From NCBI GenBank assembly GCA_003215775.1, contig QCJW01000009.1:1-64000 (forward strand): a stretch of 64,000 nucleotides of DNA, given 5' to 3'. Within the stretch, counting starts at the first letter, position 1; every line of letters begins with the position of its first letter. Below are positions 1 through 36,115 of the stretch, piece after piece. Position numbers and translations under genes: made by a program. A model generated the notes under the pieces. The model saw only the letters and a program-made list of their open reading frames with translations. It did not search any database and was not told where the DNA came from. This DNA is from Prochlorococcus sp. AG-409-G20 (GTDB taxonomy: Bacteria > Cyanobacteriota > Cyanobacteriia > PCC-6307 > Cyanobiaceae).

Positions 1-39
1 CGGCTTGCTGAGTGATGGGGATCACTAAGGACGTCTAGA

Positions 40-62
40 GGGGCCTAAGAGGGTCCCTTTTT
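40..62 (+). terminator. Rho-independent terminator of a gene left of the window
   Basis: A 6-bp stem GGGGCC (40-45) pairs with GGTCCC (52-57), including one G-T pair, around the loop TAAGAG. Five T follow directly (58-62). This is the usual plus-strand intrinsic terminator layout, so a plus-strand transcript probably enters from outside the window. A second small hairpin, GTGAT-GGGG-ATCAC, lies just upstream at 11-24. Confidence 0.6.
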
Positions 63-145
63 CTTGCAATTTCAGATTTACAGATTTCAAAAAGCACAAA
101 CGAGCCAACTTAGCAAGAATGATAAAGAACAGACCTTTGTGGTCC

Positions 146-164
146 ATTCAAACTTTATTCAAAC
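146..164 (+). promoter_or_regulatory. 11-base-period tandem repeat, Pho-box-like (copy A)
   Basis: ATTCAAAC occurs at 146-153 and again at 157-164, a period of 11. It sits 22 bases before micro-ORF A. Copy B at 2289-2310 has the same layout, and the two share the pattern TTTAYYCAAAC. The 8+3 spacing resembles the cyanobacterial PhoB box (8-base repeats of type PyTTAAPyPyW, 3-base spacer). Copy A is the weaker match, so the assignment to PhoB is an inference. Confidence 0.3.
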
Positions 165-186
165 TGCCCATATTCGCTGAGATCCC

Positions 187-228
187 ATGGCACAACAGGA
201 ACCTAGCTACTGGCCAATGAAAAGATAA
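187..228 (+). CDS. Micro-ORF A, 13 codons, YWPMKR core
   Basis: A 13-codon frame, MAQQEPSYWPMKR, follows the tandem repeat at 146-164. Its YW-x-MKR end matches micro-ORF B at 2337-2384 (YWLMKR), and the DNA upstream of both is alignable, so the two loci are related copies. YWLMK is also how EVE-domain proteins begin, so a truncated remnant is possible. No strong ribosome-binding site is visible, and translation is unproven. It may be a leader peptide or part of a small RNA. Confidence 0.3.
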   Translation: MAQQEPSYWPMKR

Positions 229-324
229 AAGCCTTTGATAACAGTCGATCTCAAGGAATCATCAAAACCCATACCAGCAAAATGCTTGTAAGCTATTACT
301 TCCGAGAGATTTAAGGAAGAAAAC

Positions 325-537
325 TCAATCGTCATAAACCTTGCAATGAGAATTGGTTGGATGCTCTTTGCATTCTTCATCCCAAAAATCTAAATTTGGC
401 TCTTGCTTATTTAGCTCGAATTCGAGACCACATTCCTTAATAGGCACTTCAACATCATCGATCGTACAAACGATGTTATCTAGTGGTTTATTCTTCAATG
501 CATCCCTAAGGATGGCGAATGTTGTCGTTAGTTTCAT
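325..537 (-). CDS. Small protein with a CP12-like C-terminal tail
   Basis: This 70-residue protein starts at the ATG that overlaps the stop of the upstream 46-residue gene (ATGA). That overlap decides the start; a longer frame exists but runs into the neighbour. The last 15 residues, ECKEHPTNSHCKVYDD in part, have the CP12 GAPDH-binding layout: two cysteines with eight residues between them, a proline four residues after the first, and a final YDD. The N-terminal 45 residues do not show the CP12 core AWD-VEEL segment. CP12 is a redox-controlled linker that inactivates GAPDH and phosphoribulokinase in the Calvin cycle. A GAPDH-binding role here is an inference from the tail alone. A second, conventional CP12 is expected elsewhere in the genome. 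Confidence 0.7.
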   Translation of the reverse strand: MKLTTTFAILRDALKNKPLDNIVCTIDDVEVPIKECGLEFELNKQEPNLDFWDEECKEHPTNSHCKVYDD

Positions 538-674
538 TGGAAACCTCCTTTGCATGCAACAGCAAATTCACGCCAAAACTCCCGGGCACCTAGAAAAGCC
601 AAGCATCCAAGAGAAATACCAACAGCTATTGGGAGAATAGATTCAAAAACCGTTAGTCCTTCTTGATAGTTCAT
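534..674 (-). CDS. 46-residue membrane micro-protein
   Basis: This gene begins MNYQEGLTVFESILPIAVGI and carries one hydrophobic segment at about residues 10-28, followed by a basic and aromatic stretch (GAREFWREF). A strong Shine-Dalgarno, AGGAGGT, lies a few bases before the ATG at 674. Its TGA overlaps the ATG of the CP12-tail gene, so the two are translationally coupled. A hairpin with GGGGCTT/AAGCCCC arms lies in the leader at about 698-733. The function is unknown. Coupling to a soluble protein with a possible GAPDH-binding tail suggests that the two proteins act together, but nothing in the sequence proves it. Confidence 0.6.
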   Translation of the reverse strand: MNYQEGLTVFESILPIAVGISLGCLAFLGAREFWREFAVACKGGFQ

Positions 675-845
675 TGCAGACCTCCTGAGGAAGTTTTGCG
701 AGGGGCTTGCGACAAAAGCCCCCCTAAAGCCCTCAGAGCATTAACCCTGTATTTATTGCCCATCTAGGCTCTAGTTAATTTTTAATTGTTAATAGCAACA
801 ATGTCTATGGTGCTATTACTAAAGTACTTAGCCTCAATAATCTAT

Positions 846-1238
846 TCATGGAAGCCAAGAACTTGCAGGCAATGGCATAGAAGGCATGTATTCTTGATCC
901 TCAAGAGAGGAGTCCTTTAAATCACACGCCAAATCACATTCGGTCAATTCTGGGTTAGCGAGTCGATCGAGAATTCTTGTCATGTCCACTGCGGAAAGTT
1001 CACCATCTCTGGTCCACTTCAATGTGGTTTTCCTTTGAGGAGAACCCTTATCAGAGATTTCCGTAATCAAATTATTCTTACCTTCCAAATCATCCAAGTA
1101 TGCCTTGGCAGAGTGCAAGTCTCTTGAGTACACACAACGGCTTCTTGAGCATGATCGAAAGATCCGACCAGTATCGCCTCTAAAACAAGTAATTGAACCG
1201 CCTTTAGGGGAAATTAATAAGGGATTTGTCGTAATCAT
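846..1238 (-). CDS. Hypothetical protein, second gene of a coupled pair
   Basis: This 130-residue protein has no family I recognise. The N-terminal third holds three cysteines within about 18 residues (ITCFRG, RSCSRSRC). The C-terminal part is acidic with two more (ECDLACDL) and ends in a proline-rich tail. There is no signal peptide or membrane segment. The start is well supported: GAGGAGG lies 7 bases upstream and the ATG overlaps the stop of the twin-CX3C gene (ATGA). It is clearly co-translated with that gene, and both are cysteine-bearing, so a shared redox or metal role is possible but unproven. Confidence 0.65.
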   Translation of the reverse strand: MITTNPLLISPKGGSITCFRGDTGRIFRSCSRSRCVYSRDLHSAKAYLDDLEGKNNLITEISDKGSPQRKTTLKWTRDGELSAVDMTRILDRLANPELTECDLACDLKDSSLEDQEYMPSMPLPASSWLP

Positions 1239-1396
1239 TTTTTTGCCTCCTCTTTAAGATGAACCTCTATACATTGAGTGACACATTGGATGCCATCATC
1301 AACTAAAGAGCAGGCAGTAATGCATTCAAAATACTCATCAATAGCATCATGTTCGATGTCAACATCTTGCATGTCATAAGATCTTCTTGTAAGCAT
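1235..1396 (-). CDS. 53-residue twin CX3C micro-protein
   Basis: The start is taken at the ATG at 1396 because AAGGAGGT precedes it by 7 bases; an upstream ATG in the same frame lacks this. The protein is MLTRRSYDMQ then a mostly acidic helical stretch, with cysteines spaced C-x3-C (residues 25 and 29) and C-x3-C (38 and 42), eight residues between the pairs. Such a layout can form a helical hairpin held by two disulfides, as in small mitochondrial TIM proteins, but homology is not implied. The stop overlaps the next start, so it leads a two-gene unit. The function is unknown. Confidence 0.65.
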   Translation of the reverse strand: MLTRRSYDMQDVDIEHDAIDEYFECITACSLVDDGIQCVTQCIEVHLKEEAKK

Positions 1397-1465
1397 GACT
1401 TGCACCTCCTTAAGATTGAAGCAGAACCTATCATAAAAAATTTTATTTTTGAGATTTAGTAACAA

Positions 1466-1796
1466 AATATGCAGTGATTAGGTAATCCTTACTAGCCAAA
1501 TATGAATTAATAAAGTTTTGAGATTTAACCATATTTTGGCTATTAAGTATAGTCTGAACTATCCTATATAAAATAACAAAAACCGACCTTCCTTTTCAAG
1601 CAAGGAGGTCGGTTTCGTGTGCATATTTTTAGAAGCTTCTTGCTCTTGATCAACTGGGGCCAAGTGTCTAGGTGTAAGGCTGATAAAACTCAATTAAGGG
1701 CACCTAAGACGATGCATAAGAGTGTCATTAATGCTTAGGAAAGCATCTACGACCAGCCCACTTATAAATTGAGGATGTTGGAGCAGGGACCATGAG
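1466..1796. other. Non-coding stretch with one terminator
   Basis: I see no credible coding frame here. The stretch holds an A+T-rich region that probably contains the promoter for the twin-CX3C gene, a clear minus-strand terminator at 1578-1615, and unassigned sequence up to the 13-codon frame at 1797. Confidence 0.5.
1578..1615 (-). terminator. Strong intrinsic terminator, minus strand
   Basis: The arm at 1602-1615 (AAGGAGGTCGGTTT) pairs with 1580-1594 with a single bulged base, around a short loop. On the minus strand the stem is followed by TTTTTGTTATTTT. It would end a minus-strand transcript that covers the micro-ORF at 1797-1838 and the IF2_N-like gene. Note that the arm contains an anti-anti-SD-like AAGGAGGT. 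On the plus strand the T-run is poorer. Confidence 0.65.
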
Positions 1797-1838
1797 TCAA
1801 TTCGCTTCTATTTGATACTCAGGCGGAGTGTCGATCAT
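1797..1838 (-). CDS. 13-codon micro-ORF with strong SD
   Basis: The frame MIDTPPEYQIEAN is preceded by GGAGGG 5 bases before the ATG at 1838, which is a better ribosome site than most genes in this window have. It lies between the IF2_N-like gene and the minus-strand terminator at 1578-1615 and could be the last cistron of that transcript. It may also be the surviving start of a truncated gene. No function can be given. Confidence 0.3.
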   Translation of the reverse strand: MIDTPPEYQIEAN

Positions 1839-1927
1839 TAATCCCTCCATGTGTTAGTAAAATAATTTTGTATCAACCGTTACAAAACTGCAATCCGCCT
1901 TAATGCCTATTTCTTCTCCAATTCCTC

Positions 1928-2205
1928 TTAGTAGTAAGCCATCAGCTTTTTAATGTGCTTAGTGCTAAGGCAACTAATCCTTGAAGTCGCTGGTATTTCT
2001 AGAAGAATGCAAACAGCTAGCAAGTCATCAGTGCCAACTTTGAGCTGCTCAGCTAGCTCTAAAACATTGGAGCCCATTTGCCAAACTTTTTGAAAAAGCC
2101 TTTTGTTCTTTTTCCTCTGCCATTGATTTCAAAAGAGTCAGACCATTGATTCTTTTTCGGTGGGTTTGATGCTTTTAGCCCTAAGAAATACGGCCATATA
2201 GCCAT
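1928..2205 (-). pseudogene. IF2_N-like small gene, split by a frameshift
   Basis: Two overlapping minus-strand frames look like halves of one protein. The 5' frame (2205 to 2059) begins MAIWPYFLGL and ends in KRTKGFFKKFGKWAPMF. The 3' frame (start ATG 2077, stop 1928) reads VLELAEQLKVGTDDLLAVC and ends HIKKLMAYY. It resembles the IF-2 N-terminal fold (LA-x-LxV-xx-LL, then a serine/leucine-rich helix). A -1 shift at the A-run CAAAAAG joins them into about 95 residues. Small stand-alone proteins with this domain occur in picocyanobacteria. It could be a decayed gene, two coupled cistrons, programmed slippage or a sequencing error. Confidence 0.5.
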
Positions 2206-2288
2206 AACCAGTGGGCGGGTTGGTGTTCCTGTTCTATATGAAATAGTGCATTTAAGTCATACCAAGCACTCTCAGCGAATCGTCCAGA

Positions 2289-2310
2289 TTTACCCAAACT
2301 TTACCCAAAC
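2289..2310 (+). promoter_or_regulatory. Perfect 11-base tandem repeat, Pho-box-like (copy B)
   Basis: TTTACCCAAAC occurs twice in tandem, at 2289-2299 and 2300-2310, ending 26 bases before micro-ORF B. Read as 8-base units (TTTACCCA) with 3-base spacers, each unit fits 7 of 8 positions of the cyanobacterial Pho-box pattern PyTTAAPyPyW. This points to control by an OmpR/PhoB-type regulator, possibly phosphate stress. Copy A near 146-164 has the same period. Confidence 0.45.
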
Positions 2311-2336
2311 CACCATTTTCGCCCAAATCCATTGAT

Positions 2337-2384
2337 ATGACTGAAATTAACTACTGGCTAATGAAAAGGCCCTCGGAAATCTGA
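2337..2384 (+). CDS. Micro-ORF B, 15 codons, YWLMKR core
   Basis: The frame MTEINYWLMKRPSEI lies 26 bases after the tandem repeat. Its start resembles the EVE-domain signature YWLMKSEP, but the frame stops after 15 codons and I see no EVE continuation. It is followed at once by a long stem-loop (2388-2469) and a T-rich tract, so the whole unit (repeat, micro-ORF, hairpin) looks like a short regulated transcript. Either a translated micro-peptide or a small RNA is possible. Confidence 0.35.
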   Translation: MTEINYWLMKRPSEI

Positions 2385-2387
2385 GAC

Positions 2388-2482
2388 AAGAAGAATCAAA
2401 CCTTCGGACGACCTAGAAAGAAGTCCTAAGAGGGACCCATTCAACACTTAGGAAGGTTTGACTCTTCTTCGTTTCTTTTTAG
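2388..2482 (+). terminator. Long bulged stem-loop ending the micro-ORF B unit
   Basis: The arms 2388-2404 and 2453-2469 pair over 17 bases with one mismatch. Inside, TCCTAAG (2424-2430) pairs with CTTAGGA (2447-2453). The 3' arm is followed by CGTTTCTTTTTAG, consistent with plus-strand termination. The hairpin also covers the last codons of the convergent minus-strand gene at 2441, so it may end or stabilise both transcripts. Confidence 0.45.
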
Positions 2483-2662
2483 TGATGGATTCCGATAACA
2501 ACATCGATCAATAATGGGAGCTATACCTTCTTCTAATTCTTGTAGAAGTTCAGTTTTAAATGCTTCTCTATTCTCAAGGGTTGGTGGTTCGTACCCTGAT
2601 TCTTGAACATCTAATAGAAGAGCCAAGATGGTTCTATGGAAAAGGGGGTGACGTAAAGACAT
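2441..2662 (-). CDS. Hypothetical 73-residue protein
   Basis: The ATG directly follows the stop of the DUF1330 gene with no gap, so the two are one transcript. The protein begins MSLRHPLFHRTILALLLDVQ, is acidic in the middle (LLQELEEGI) and ends with a cysteine-bearing tail (DRCCYRNPS and a final C). It has no signal peptide, no clear membrane segment and no family I recognise. Its 3' end overlaps the long stem-loop described at 2388-2482. Confidence 0.55.
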   Translation of the reverse strand: MSLRHPLFHRTILALLLDVQESGYEPPTLENREAFKTELLQELEEGIAPIIDRCCYRNPSLKRNEEESNLPKC

Positions 2663-3034
2663 TTACTTGCCCATTGCTCTTCTTAGTTTTGTTGGTTCAT
2701 CCATCCCTTCCATGATCGTGAAGGTTGCATTCTCTGTAGCAGCTTTGCGAATTTTGCTTAGCTCTTGATACTCCGCTGATTCATAAGCCTCAACAGCTGT
2801 ACGCATTGAAGGGAACTCACAAATAACAGCTAAGTTTGCACCTTCTGTTTGTTCTTTCCCTTGTGGTTCAGTATCTTTTGCGAAGACTAAGCCGCCGACT
2901 TCTTTTAGCCAAGGCCCTACCTTTTCGATGTATTCAGCAAAGAGTTCTTGATTAATAACTGTTGAGGTTGACATCCAATAACCTTTTGCACCTTTTTTGT
3001 CCATAAGAATAAGTGAGTCGAAAGTGCAGGGCAT
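2663..3034 (-). CDS. DUF1330 family protein (dimeric alpha/beta-barrel)
   Basis: The core KGYWMSTSTVINQELFAEY, the later CEFPSMRTAVEAY and SAEYQELSKIRK are the DUF1330 pattern of the ABM/ferredoxin-like barrel superfamily. Members are about 95-100 residues; here it is 123, with a short N-terminal lead (alternative start at MDKK, residue 12) and a C-terminal extension. GGAGGG lies 4 bases before the first ATG and favours the long form. The biochemical role of the family is not settled. It leads a two-gene unit with the 73-residue protein. Confidence 0.75.
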   Translation of the reverse strand: MPCTFDSLILMDKKGAKGYWMSTSTVINQELFAEYIEKVGPWLKEVGGLVFAKDTEPQGKEQTEGANLAVICEFPSMRTAVEAYESAEYQELSKIRKAATENATFTIMEGMDEPTKLRRAMGK

Positions 3035-3072
3035 GTGCCCTCCATCGACATCAAAGAGTTTCTCTAAATCTA

Positions 3073-3231
3073 ATGAACATCACCGAAACGTCTCGTAAGG
3101 AGGAGGTGATTACGGCTGCTTGCGAGTTGGTTGACCAGCAAGACGCAGTAATCCAAGACCTCCAGGAGCAACAGAAAAAACTCTTTCTATTGCTCAGCAT
3201 TATCACGACCATTCACCTCATCGCACCTTGA
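3073..3231 (+). CDS. Small coiled-coil/tail-anchor protein
   Basis: The frame encodes 52 residues starting MNITETSRKEEVITAACELV. A heptad-like helix (DQQDAVIQDLQEQQKK) leads into a short hydrophobic C-terminal segment (LFLLLSIITTIHLIAP). This looks like a tail-anchored membrane micro-protein, a pattern I associate with picocyanobacteria and their phages. The longer upstream frame reads through the DUF1330 gene on the other strand and is not used. The function is unknown. Confidence 0.5.
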   Translation: MNITETSRKEEVITAACELVDQQDAVIQDLQEQQKKLFLLLSIITTIHLIAP

Positions 3232-3316
3232 AAACTAAATGCCACTATCCATCCAACGGCATTCCAAAAAAAAAAAACCCCCATGCAGAAAAGAGGCTCT
3301 CTTATTAAGACCGTTT

Positions 3317-3485
3317 GATCCCCATCACCCGGCCGTTGAAAGGAACCTACACACTGTCAAGCGATTTGTCATCAGTAGATACACGCTATTCATGGGGTTT
3401 CTTAATATGTTTGATAAGAAAAAACGCTACAAATGGGGGTTGATTTTGAGGTGAATCGGTCTTAGAAATAAGATCCCCATCACCC
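3317..3485 (+). repeat. Pair of 14-base direct repeats
   Basis: GATCCCCATCACCC is found exactly at 3317-3330 and at 3472-3485, 155 bases apart. Both are preceded by CTTA-rich sequence. The second copy is followed immediately by the terminator stem at 3486. Confidence 0.6.
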
Positions 3486-3518
3486 AGGTCCGTAGCGTTT
3501 CGCATGGACCTTTTTTTT
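3486..3518 (+). terminator. Intrinsic terminator, plus strand
   Basis: AGGTCC (3486-3491) pairs with GGACCT (3506-3511), partly extended by GTAGCG/CGCAT inside, and eight T follow from 3511. It would end a plus-strand transcript from the 52-residue gene at 3073 or from a small RNA in 3240-3480. Confidence 0.7.
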
Positions 3519-3607
3519 GGCTAAAGAGCTTGCCACATATCTCGCAGACATGGACAACGTTTAAGTCATCATGGGTAGGAGGTGGGTGAACCTTGAAAAC
3601 TGAATAA

Positions 3608-3793
3608 CTAGGTATTAATAGTTCTCTTGTAAATGAAAAAAGCTAAGGCTAGTGACACCAGGGAATCTAAAGCTACGAAAACGTTTGCAGTTGGACTCCC
3701 TGGTTCAAACCCTCCAGCCCAAAAGGTAAAACCGGCATGGCCTAATAGCCATAGAACACACAACCCAATTCCAATAATTGAAGATGCAGTCAC
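3608..3793 (-). CDS. Two-segment membrane micro-protein (last gene of micro-operon)
   Basis: This 61-residue protein begins at a GTG that directly follows the TAG of the DUF2905 gene. Two hydrophobic segments are visible, around residues 4-25 and 37-55, with the linker WAGGFEPGSPTAN between them and a basic end (YKRTINT). This is a helical hairpin topology. The opposite-strand frame at 3633-3866 is treated as a shadow because this one is hydrophobic and in operon register. No family is recognised. It is the eighth and last member of the overlapping minus-strand set. Confidence 0.6.
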   Translation of the reverse strand: MTASSIIGIGLCVLWLLGHAGFTFWAGGFEPGSPTANVFVALDSLVSLALAFFIYKRTINT

Positions 3794-3994
3794 CTATTTG
3801 CTGAGCAAATTAAAAATGACTGAAACCAACAAACTCACAACAATGCAACTCACGATTGGAAAGTAAAAGGTTGAGTTCTCACCCCTTAAAACAATGTCGC
3901 CTGGGAGTTGCCCTAAACCCAAATTCTTGAGATAGGGATAAAGAACTCCGATAGCAGCAATACCAAGCCCAAAAGTAATTAGCAGTTTTTTAAT
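3794..3994 (-). CDS. DUF2905 membrane protein, apparent ATT start
   Basis: The frame reads KKLLITFGLGIAAIG, then LGLGQLPGDIV, then TFYFPIVSC and a second hydrophobic helix. This is the DUF2905 pattern (LG-x-LPGDI and FYFP between two membrane segments) at the usual length of about 66 residues. A TAG lies two codons upstream and no ATG, GTG or TTG is in frame before the conserved region. The codon where Met is expected is ATT. Either AUU is used as the start, as in a few bacterial genes, or the start was lost by mutation. The stop abuts the next GTG. The family's biochemical role is unknown. Confidence 0.65.
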   Translation of the reverse strand: MKKLLITFGLGIAAIGVLYPYLKNLGLGQLPGDIVLRGENSTFYFPIVSCIVVSLLVSVIFNLLSK

Positions 3995-4012
3995 TTCCTA
4001 ATTATGCCGCTT

Positions 4013-4165
4013 TTAAACCAACCTTTCTATTTGCAGAATGACTTCCTGCTGACTGCGGATGCTTTGCTCTTGCTTATCTACTGGTGGCTCAGTGACTGTG
4101 AAGTAAATAAACAGGATTGTGAGCGGGCAAAAAACGATACGAGTGATTGGCCAGAAGTAGCGCAT
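4013..4165 (-). CDS. 50-residue membrane micro-protein
   Basis: The protein starts MRYFWPITRIVFCPLTILFI, a single N-terminal membrane segment, followed by a charged, glutamine-rich helix (DKQEQSIRSQQEVILQIERL). GGAGG lies 5 bases before the ATG, and the ATG overlaps the previous stop as TAATG, so translation is coupled. An antisense frame at 4004-4168 is less plausible. The function is unknown. Confidence 0.6.
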   Translation of the reverse strand: MRYFWPITRIVFCPLTILFIYFTVTEPPVDKQEQSIRSQQEVILQIERLV

Positions 4166-4329
4166 TAGTCCTCCCTGGGTATTCCCATATTTCTGTTCTT
4201 CTTGTCCTTATTGATCTCCTCCTTGACTTTGTTGAAGTAAGCGATCTCTTCAGGATCATCTGAACCAAGCCCGTATCCCATCGTTGCCGCGAGGTAAATC
4301 TTGTGTTGTCTATGAGAGGTAAGAGTCAC
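4165..4329 (-). CDS. Small soluble protein of the micro-operon
   Basis: From a GTG start the frame gives 54 residues (MTLTSHRQHKIYLAATMGYG...). A shorter start at the ATG of MGYGLGSDDPEEIAYFNKV would give 38. The C-terminal half is a charged helix (KEEINKDKKNRN). No membrane segment is visible, unlike most neighbours. Its end carries the ribosome site for the next gene, and its stop overlaps that start (TAATG). The family is not recognised. Confidence 0.55.
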   Translation of the reverse strand: MTLTSHRQHKIYLAATMGYGLGSDDPEEIAYFNKVKEEINKDKKNRNMGIPRED

Positions 4330-4335
4330 CGGTCT

Positions 4336-4458
4336 TTATTGCTTTCCAAAAAACCTTTTGAATTGCCAAACCAGGTAAGCAGTAGTTCCTGCAAATAAAA
4401 ACAAACCGACAGTCCCTACTGCTTGGTTAGCGGCTTCAACAGTTGGCCAGTCATCCAT
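4336..4458 (-). CDS. 40-residue single-pass membrane micro-protein
   Basis: The protein begins MDDWPTVEAANQAVGTVGLF with a membrane segment at about residues 15-33 and a basic C-terminus (QFKRFFGKQ), typical of a single-pass micro-protein with the C-terminal end in the cytoplasm. It overlaps the preceding gene by 8 bases in another frame. Small photosystem and cytochrome subunits have this size and shape, but the sequence matches none that I recognise. Confidence 0.55.
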   Translation of the reverse strand: MDDWPTVEAANQAVGTVGLFLFAGTTAYLVWQFKRFFGKQ

Positions 4459-4651
4459 CCTTTTTACCTTTACCAAATAAGGGCCCCGTAAACAAAAAAT
4501 AACAGATAGCCACTAGAAACAAACCAAAGGCAATGAGGTTTGGGAGTATCCCTCCAATAATTTCAGCCTTAGCGAAATAAGTATTCGCTGCTTCGAGACC
4601 TAGAACACTCATCACGACAAATAATCGGGCGTAATTATCAGCAAAATCCAT
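4451..4651 (-). CDS. 66-residue membrane protein of the micro-operon
   Basis: The start is taken at ATG 4651 (MDFADNYARLFVVMSVLGLE) because it overlaps the previous stop as TAATG; a TTG two codons earlier is possible. Two hydrophobic stretches, about residues 8-22 and 35-55, flank a polar piece (AANTYFAKAE), and a lysine-rich end follows (KGKKDG). No family is recognised. Its last codons contain the start of the next gene. Confidence 0.6.
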   Translation of the reverse strand: MDFADNYARLFVVMSVLGLEAANTYFAKAEIIGGILPNLIAFGLFLVAICYFLFTGPLFGKGKKDG

Positions 4652-4758
4652 TACCAATCTGGGTAGATGAAATCATCACCTATTGGTTCCTCATAGAAGT
4701 CACCTGCTGCGATGCCTCTTTGGTAAGCGTAGAAAAATCTAATGAGTAATCGGCGCAT
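4651..4758 (-). CDS. 35-residue micro-protein
   Basis: A short frame, MRRLLIRFFYAYQRGIAAGD then an acidic end (DDFIYPDW), is joined to both neighbours by TAATG overlaps. The N-terminus is basic and aromatic and could be membrane-associated. Its reality rests on the two exact stop-start overlaps rather than on homology. Confidence 0.45.
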   Translation of the reverse strand: MRRLLIRFFYAYQRGIAAGDFYEEPIGDDFIYPDW

Positions 4759-4931
4759 TAGTTTTCATCTTTCTTTGTAAGCCCTTTCCATACCAGCGGA
4801 TTTTGACCTTTAGTCATCACAGTGATGGCACGTCCAAGGAACCAAGAACCTACGAGAAATCCAACAGCAGCAACCCCATAAAGAAGGTTGGCTTGGTAAG
4901 TAGTCCCTAATAGATAGAAAGTGTTCTCCAT
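4758..4931 (-). CDS. 57-residue single-pass membrane protein (first gene of micro-operon)
   Basis: The frame begins MENTFYLLGTTYQANLLYGV with a membrane segment at about residues 16-34 (VAAVGFLVGSWFLG) and a basic C-terminal part (KGQNPLVWKGLTKKDEN). It is the first of eight closely packed minus-strand genes; its stop overlaps the next ATG (TAATG). The A+T-rich sequence at 4932-4990 should hold the promoter; CATAAT near 4966-4971 is a possible -10, but no convincing -35 is visible. Confidence 0.6.
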   Translation of the reverse strand: MENTFYLLGTTYQANLLYGVAAVGFLVGSWFLGRAITVMTKGQNPLVWKGLTKKDEN

Positions 4932-5161
4932 CCTTCTATTAAAGGTCTAAAAAGTTTTTTATCATTATGCCTTGACTTTTAGCAAACACTAAAAAAGAAA
5001 CATGAACCAGGTCACGACTACTTAGATCAATTTCATCCAAACCATTGGAGATTTATTGATCATTGGTGTTGTTACTTGTCATGTCGCAAGGTCGAATTCT
5101 ACTAGGCCGACTAATATCTCATGAATGGTTCATATCCCAACTACACAAAAGTATTATCAAA

Positions 5162-35955: not shown

Positions 35956-36115
35956 ATTCATATTTACTAACGTATGCAATGATTTCGATCCAGCCTTATA
36001 TCACTTAGTTTAGAAGTTAAGCGGAGAATTATTTTTAAAAGTCATATCTAAATGAAATATAAATTCCTATTTTCAAGTAGGTACTCAGTAATGTCTTATG
36101 TTAGCTTCCTTTTAT

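Follow-up and report, generated by a model that had tools for sequence, protein, structure and literature searches.

The window analysed here, a stretch of 64,000 nucleotides (positions 1 to 64,000 of contig QCJW01000009.1; G+C 39.6%), belongs to a fragmented draft genome of Prochlorococcus sp. AG-409-G20 (1.5 Mb, 83% complete) and carries near its beginning a row of eight very small genes on the minus strand, designated A to H from position 4931 down to 3608. Its closest named matches are single-cell genomes of Prochlorococcus, from plates belonging to a published set (PMC6122165). The array opens with gene A (4758–4931; 57 amino acids, one transmembrane helix), which shares a −1 overlap of the TAATG type with gene B (4651–4758; 35 amino acids, without a transmembrane helix), and B overlaps in the same manner with gene C (4451–4651; 66 amino acids, one or two transmembrane helices). 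Gene D (4336–4458; 40 amino acids, a borderline transmembrane helix) overlaps C by 8 nucleotides (−8) and is followed after a gap of 6 nucleotides (+6) by gene E (4165–4329; 54 amino acids, soluble, GTG start), to which gene F (4013–4165; 50 amino acids, one transmembrane helix) is joined by another −1 overlap (TAATG). After a gap of 18 nucleotides (+18) comes gene G (3794–3994; 66 amino acids, two transmembrane helices), and gene H (3608–3793; 61 amino acids, two transmembrane helices, GTG start) directly abuts G (spacing 0). The original prediction had placed eight frames of 35–66 codons exactly at these positions and had called them overlapping, which applies to four of the seven junctions, G/H being an abutment and D/E and F/G short gaps. 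It had also assigned a hydrophobic helix to at least six of them. The proteins are indeed mostly membrane proteins, but a threshold of KD ≥ 1.6 over 19 residues is reached only by A, C, F, G, and H; D is borderline (1.55), and B and E have no such segment.

The array lies within a mosaic island (1–5071), which consists mostly of segments 84–94% identical to different genomes, with homology junctions at 2065/2066, at 3226–3248, and at about 3585–3592. The comparison extended to 16 kb, and beyond the island, from about 5071 onwards, it gave a single 60-base match of this quality. The region upstream of A (4932–5002, minus strand) is conserved with the relatives G052, G027, and G019 and is presumed to be a promoter region common to A and a small divergent gene; no consensus promoter was found in it. 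Of this divergent gene, which encodes a 48-amino-acid membrane protein of family f36, only a remnant with an internal TAG is left (5003–5071, plus strand), and it is at 5071 that G052 and G027 cease to match the window in BLAST. Downstream of H lies a probably non-coding element of about 360 bases (3226–3600), which contains two copies of the motif GATCCCCATCACCC, the repeat ACCTTGAAAACT[AG]AA at both ends, and, as read by eye, a terminator-like hairpin on the plus strand at about 3487–3520. The element occurs alongside the array in G027, in G057 (with two copies), and in G035 and has no match in Rfam. Scans for sigma-70 promoters and terminators performed no better than on shuffled sequences.

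The eight frames are genuine genes, each of which is under purifying selection. The original prediction was to fall if the frames were absent from related genomes; all eight were found again in further Prochlorococcus genomes, the pooled pN/pS ratios, computed from uncorrected and partly saturated distances, being 0.32 (A), 0.37 (B), 0.31 (C), 0.23 (D), 0.27 (E), 0.46 (F), 0.27 (G), and 0.31 (H). Gene A, for instance, has homologs in 15 of the 61 genomes searched, and a paralogue family of gene C with about 65% identity occurs elsewhere, e.g. on contig C22 of G000. The row of frames is also improbable by chance, as had been claimed: chains of at least six same-strand open reading frames joined at spacings of −8 to +18 appeared in none of 1000 dinucleotide shuffles with a minimal length of 35 amino acids and in one of 1000 with a minimal length of 30 amino acids, the observed chain scoring 6 by this criterion because it is broken by the ATT start of G. 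It is the conservation of each frame in other genomes, with these pN/pS ratios, which is conclusive and outweighs the chance test. That the frames are remnants of larger, broken genes which merely read as short frames is therefore scarcely credible. Some copies elsewhere (G025, G027, and G057) do show stops within the frame, split frames, or a fusion of C and D in frame, but across lineages each frame keeps a start and a stop codon of its own, the pN/pS ratio is low for each frame alone, and, apart from a fused and truncated C-D copy, no longer homologue spanning two frames was seen. In this copy (G025, L127:9981–10286), C and D are fused in frame and a stop truncates D; it is probably decaying. 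The internal stops in some homologues indicate that parts of the system turn over fast.

As originally predicted, only gene G belongs to a named family. It matches Pfam PF11146 (DUF2905) with an E-value of 5.4e-24 and 84.6 bits (cut-off 22.2), residues 3–64 being aligned to positions 2–64 of the 64-position profile, and the other seven proteins gave nothing significant in Pfam, NCBIfam, PADLOC, or PHROGs. Gene G thus covers the full domain of a family of unknown function, but differs from this family in general by its position among lineage-specific micro-genes and by the lack of an ATG in the window genome: its frame is open over 66 codons, and it begins at 3994 with ATT in place of the ATGCA(A/G)A present in nearly all close relatives. 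To judge from this substitution, if it is no sequencing error, G may be weakly made or decaying in the window genome. Searched as profiles against the PDB, A, C, D, and H yielded nothing convincing and no likeness to known photosystem subunits; a match of C to a pentatricopeptide repeat protein (E=0.0011) covered only 16 residues and was judged to be due to chance. Small proteins of less than 80 amino acids, several of them with one transmembrane helix, have been described in cyanobacteria (PMC5126843) and resemble those of the array in these respects, but the five examples tested there are single Synechocystis genes rather than modular arrays, and DUF2905 is not mentioned.

Five of the seven junctions (−8, −1, or 0) have the geometry of translationally coupled operons, in which the stop codon of one gene overlaps or adjoins the start codon of the next on the same strand. 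Among overlapping neighbours, spacings of −1, −4, and −8 are enriched, and they are associated with translational coupling (PMC12548453), so that the downstream frames of the array are probably translated by termination and restart. In this mechanism, A to H would be carried by one transcript, and ribosomes terminating at one stop codon would restart at the overlapping or adjacent start codon, which is the most likely route for the downstream genes. The array shares its spacing classes and its expected termination-reinitiation mechanism with the operons described (PMC12548453), but differs from them in that the partners at its joints swap between genomes while the geometry of the joint is often kept.

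This exchange of partners became evident when A, C, E, F, G, and H were used as queries and 40 regions of up to 20 kb were then inspected, the relatives, many of them incomplete single-cell assemblies, being sampled mainly one per genus. Members of the eight families were found in about 25 genomes, in differing combinations, either as separable modules (BCD, EF, GH) or as single genes, and the full order ABCDEFGH was found in the window only. G052 has ABCDEF, and G035 and G041 have BCDEF. In G027, about 12 kb separate ABCD from DEFGH, and G057 has ABCDE together with EFGH, the latter about 4 kb away on the opposite strand. In G019, AFGH occurs besides CDE with a truncated F, with B located elsewhere. 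BCDG is present in G025, G030, G013, G045, and G056 and, in shortened versions, in G001 and G049, and on one contig of G030, A, BCDG, E, and H are located at separate places. Conservation of the gene order in relatives, which the original prediction had proposed as a check, was thus not observed as that of a fixed block, but as subsets, scattered single genes, and duplicated members. The proposed conservation of the overlaps was borne out for C-D (−8; 19 of 20 C-D pairs) and E-F (−1; 20 loci), the most stable pairs, whereas across the other joints the partners vary.

The changed pairings are themselves often exact. A|F, A|G, f35|F, G|C, and D|G are all joined at −1, as are A|B (9 loci), E|F, and B|C, and gene G alone has five different partners directly after it, each at −1. 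When neighbouring small genes were sorted into 64 types of pairs, the modal spacing was most often −1 (14 types), followed by −4 (8) and 0 (7), the starts in this approximate count being set by the median length of the family. The loss of gene order is no special feature of small genes, an idea that we rejected: neighbour conservation was 0.20 for families of 28–80 amino acids and 0.08–0.25 for longer families in the same loci, which argues that reshuffling is a property of the islands and not of small genes alone.

These combinations bear on the suggestion that the eight proteins form a membrane complex or a fixed set of modulators of the photosynthetic membrane, encoded together because they assemble together. 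The tight coupling, the presence of five or six membrane proteins, and the stability of the C-D and E-F joints in nearly all occurrences would fit with such an assembly, but all eight genes are joined in the window only, with subsets, scattered singles, and duplicates elsewhere and modules that are separable across about 25 genomes, and the PDB searches with A, C, D, and H gave no likeness to known photosystem subunits. We therefore consider an obligate, fixed eight-protein complex unlikely. Since no other genome was found that keeps all eight genes, the proteins would rather act as separable units, and the gene order points to B-C-D and E-F as the probable working sub-units.

For rpoB (1013 codons; identified by Pfam PF00562), pS between the window genome and 17 others is 0.70–0.79 and thus saturated, and for the neighbouring gene selO it is 0.60–0.74 (0.65 for G057). 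For the array, pS is only 0.157 (G052), 0.161 (G035), 0.142 (G027), 0.134 (G057), 0.126 (G041), and 0.300 (G019), compared with rpoB values of 0.71–0.76 for G052, G035, G027, and G057 (rpoB was not found in G041). The array genes are not inherently slow, since in G045, the sister of the window genome in the rpoB tree, C, D, and G have a pS of 0.57. The array is therefore too similar for ordinary descent and has moved laterally; lateral exchange between distant Prochlorococcus lineages is the simplest account. The arrangements of the array are scattered over the rpoB tree, in which the deeper nodes are weakly supported. The ends of the homology blocks often coincide with gene boundaries, namely the starts of E (five genomes), B, and F and the stop of G, or lie near the start of D; others lie inside F, at 4060. 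Among relatives, the C-terminus of F exists in two alternative versions, which switch at this one place, as if the 3′ end had been exchanged.

Lateral spread, decayed copies, and the tyrosine recombinase genes or fragments present in the islands of several relatives might also be expected of selfish or defensive cargo, that is, of peptides that resemble toxins or antitoxins or act against phages and that travel with island elements. We regard this as improbable, because PADLOC gave a single generic match below threshold (C, E=0.019), PHROGs gave none of note, and no paired toxin-antitoxin layout was seen; moreover, phage records contained no relatives of the island DNA or of E, and viral contigs, which were searched with the proteins A, C, E, and H, contained none of C, E, and H. 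A phage origin was rejected on the strength of these phage and viral-contig searches, in which gene A had only four short and weak matches in viral contigs, confined to residues 33–55.

The reading that we favour, and consider probable, is that of a mobile, mosaic micro-operon which is translated by termination and reinitiation, encodes partly independent small membrane proteins, and resides in a laterally exchanged island. The array would be a composite of smaller modules (A; B-C-D; E-F; G-H), and new combinations would be retained when coupling is preserved. A further step, that the stop-start joints serve as interchangeable connectors, is put forward tentatively: the micro-genes would be cassettes re-joined at TAATG-type junctions, a transfer or deletion would yield an operon that can be translated at once, and lineages would thereby recombine their sets of small membrane proteins. 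This is possible, though we would not count on it. The A/B and E/F joints share the short identity ACTAATGCG, at which the A|F fusion in G019 may have formed, and exact new joints may stem either from recombination at short identities such as ACTAATGCG or from selection for coupled products. The sequence CTAATGC was considered as a dedicated recombination motif at the joints and rejected: its observed/expected number is 184/103 in island loci, but an excess was also found in rpoB loci (38/13), so that it is not specific for the islands.

Coupled arrays of small genes, lateral islands, and the rearrangement of operons are each known, but no description of interchangeable micro-genes with recurrent exact joints, or of the A–H array, was found in the open-access literature searched. 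In bacterial genomes, small proteins tend to escape notice, and Prochlorococcus ranks among the most abundant photosynthetic organisms. If its islands exchange whole sets of coupled micro-genes between distant lineages, part of this exchange goes unnoticed in gene-content surveys from which short frames are discarded, and the assembly of operons could be studied in snapshots, several intermediate combinations being present in living genomes. A testable question is whether the joint geometry persists through recombination at the joints or because only coupled products are kept.

With respect to its mobility, the island resembles the tycheposons and flexible islands of Prochlorococcus, of which PMC10872708 gives a second-hand account, in being laterally variable and in the occurrence of recombinase genes or fragments and of tRNA-Pro(TGG) at some of the relatives' loci. 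It differs from them in that neither a recombinase gene in the window island nor a tRNA gene near it was found and that the shared segments go down to single micro-genes. It was therefore not classed as a tycheposon: the first 12 kb of the window yielded no member of the relatives' recombinase family, and there is no tRNA gene within 30 kb of the island, the sole one in the window being located at 36115. The island touches the contig end, and a tRNA gene beyond position 1 is conceivable. In five of the 40 regions (L124, L133, L137, L141, and L142; 15–20 kb each), tRNA-Pro(TGG) lies near the micro-gene loci and is a possible integration site. At 2065/2066, the window has a sharp breakpoint in homology at the start of family f11, which in relatives is directly preceded by a recombinase gene or a fragment thereof, several of them having the end of such a gene at this place. 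A full-length integrase-like gene encoding 406 amino acids is located on contig C22 of the same genome (G000; L116:6686–7906), about 1.4 kb from family f25 and a paralogue of C, and copies and fragments of its family occur in 14 other island loci.
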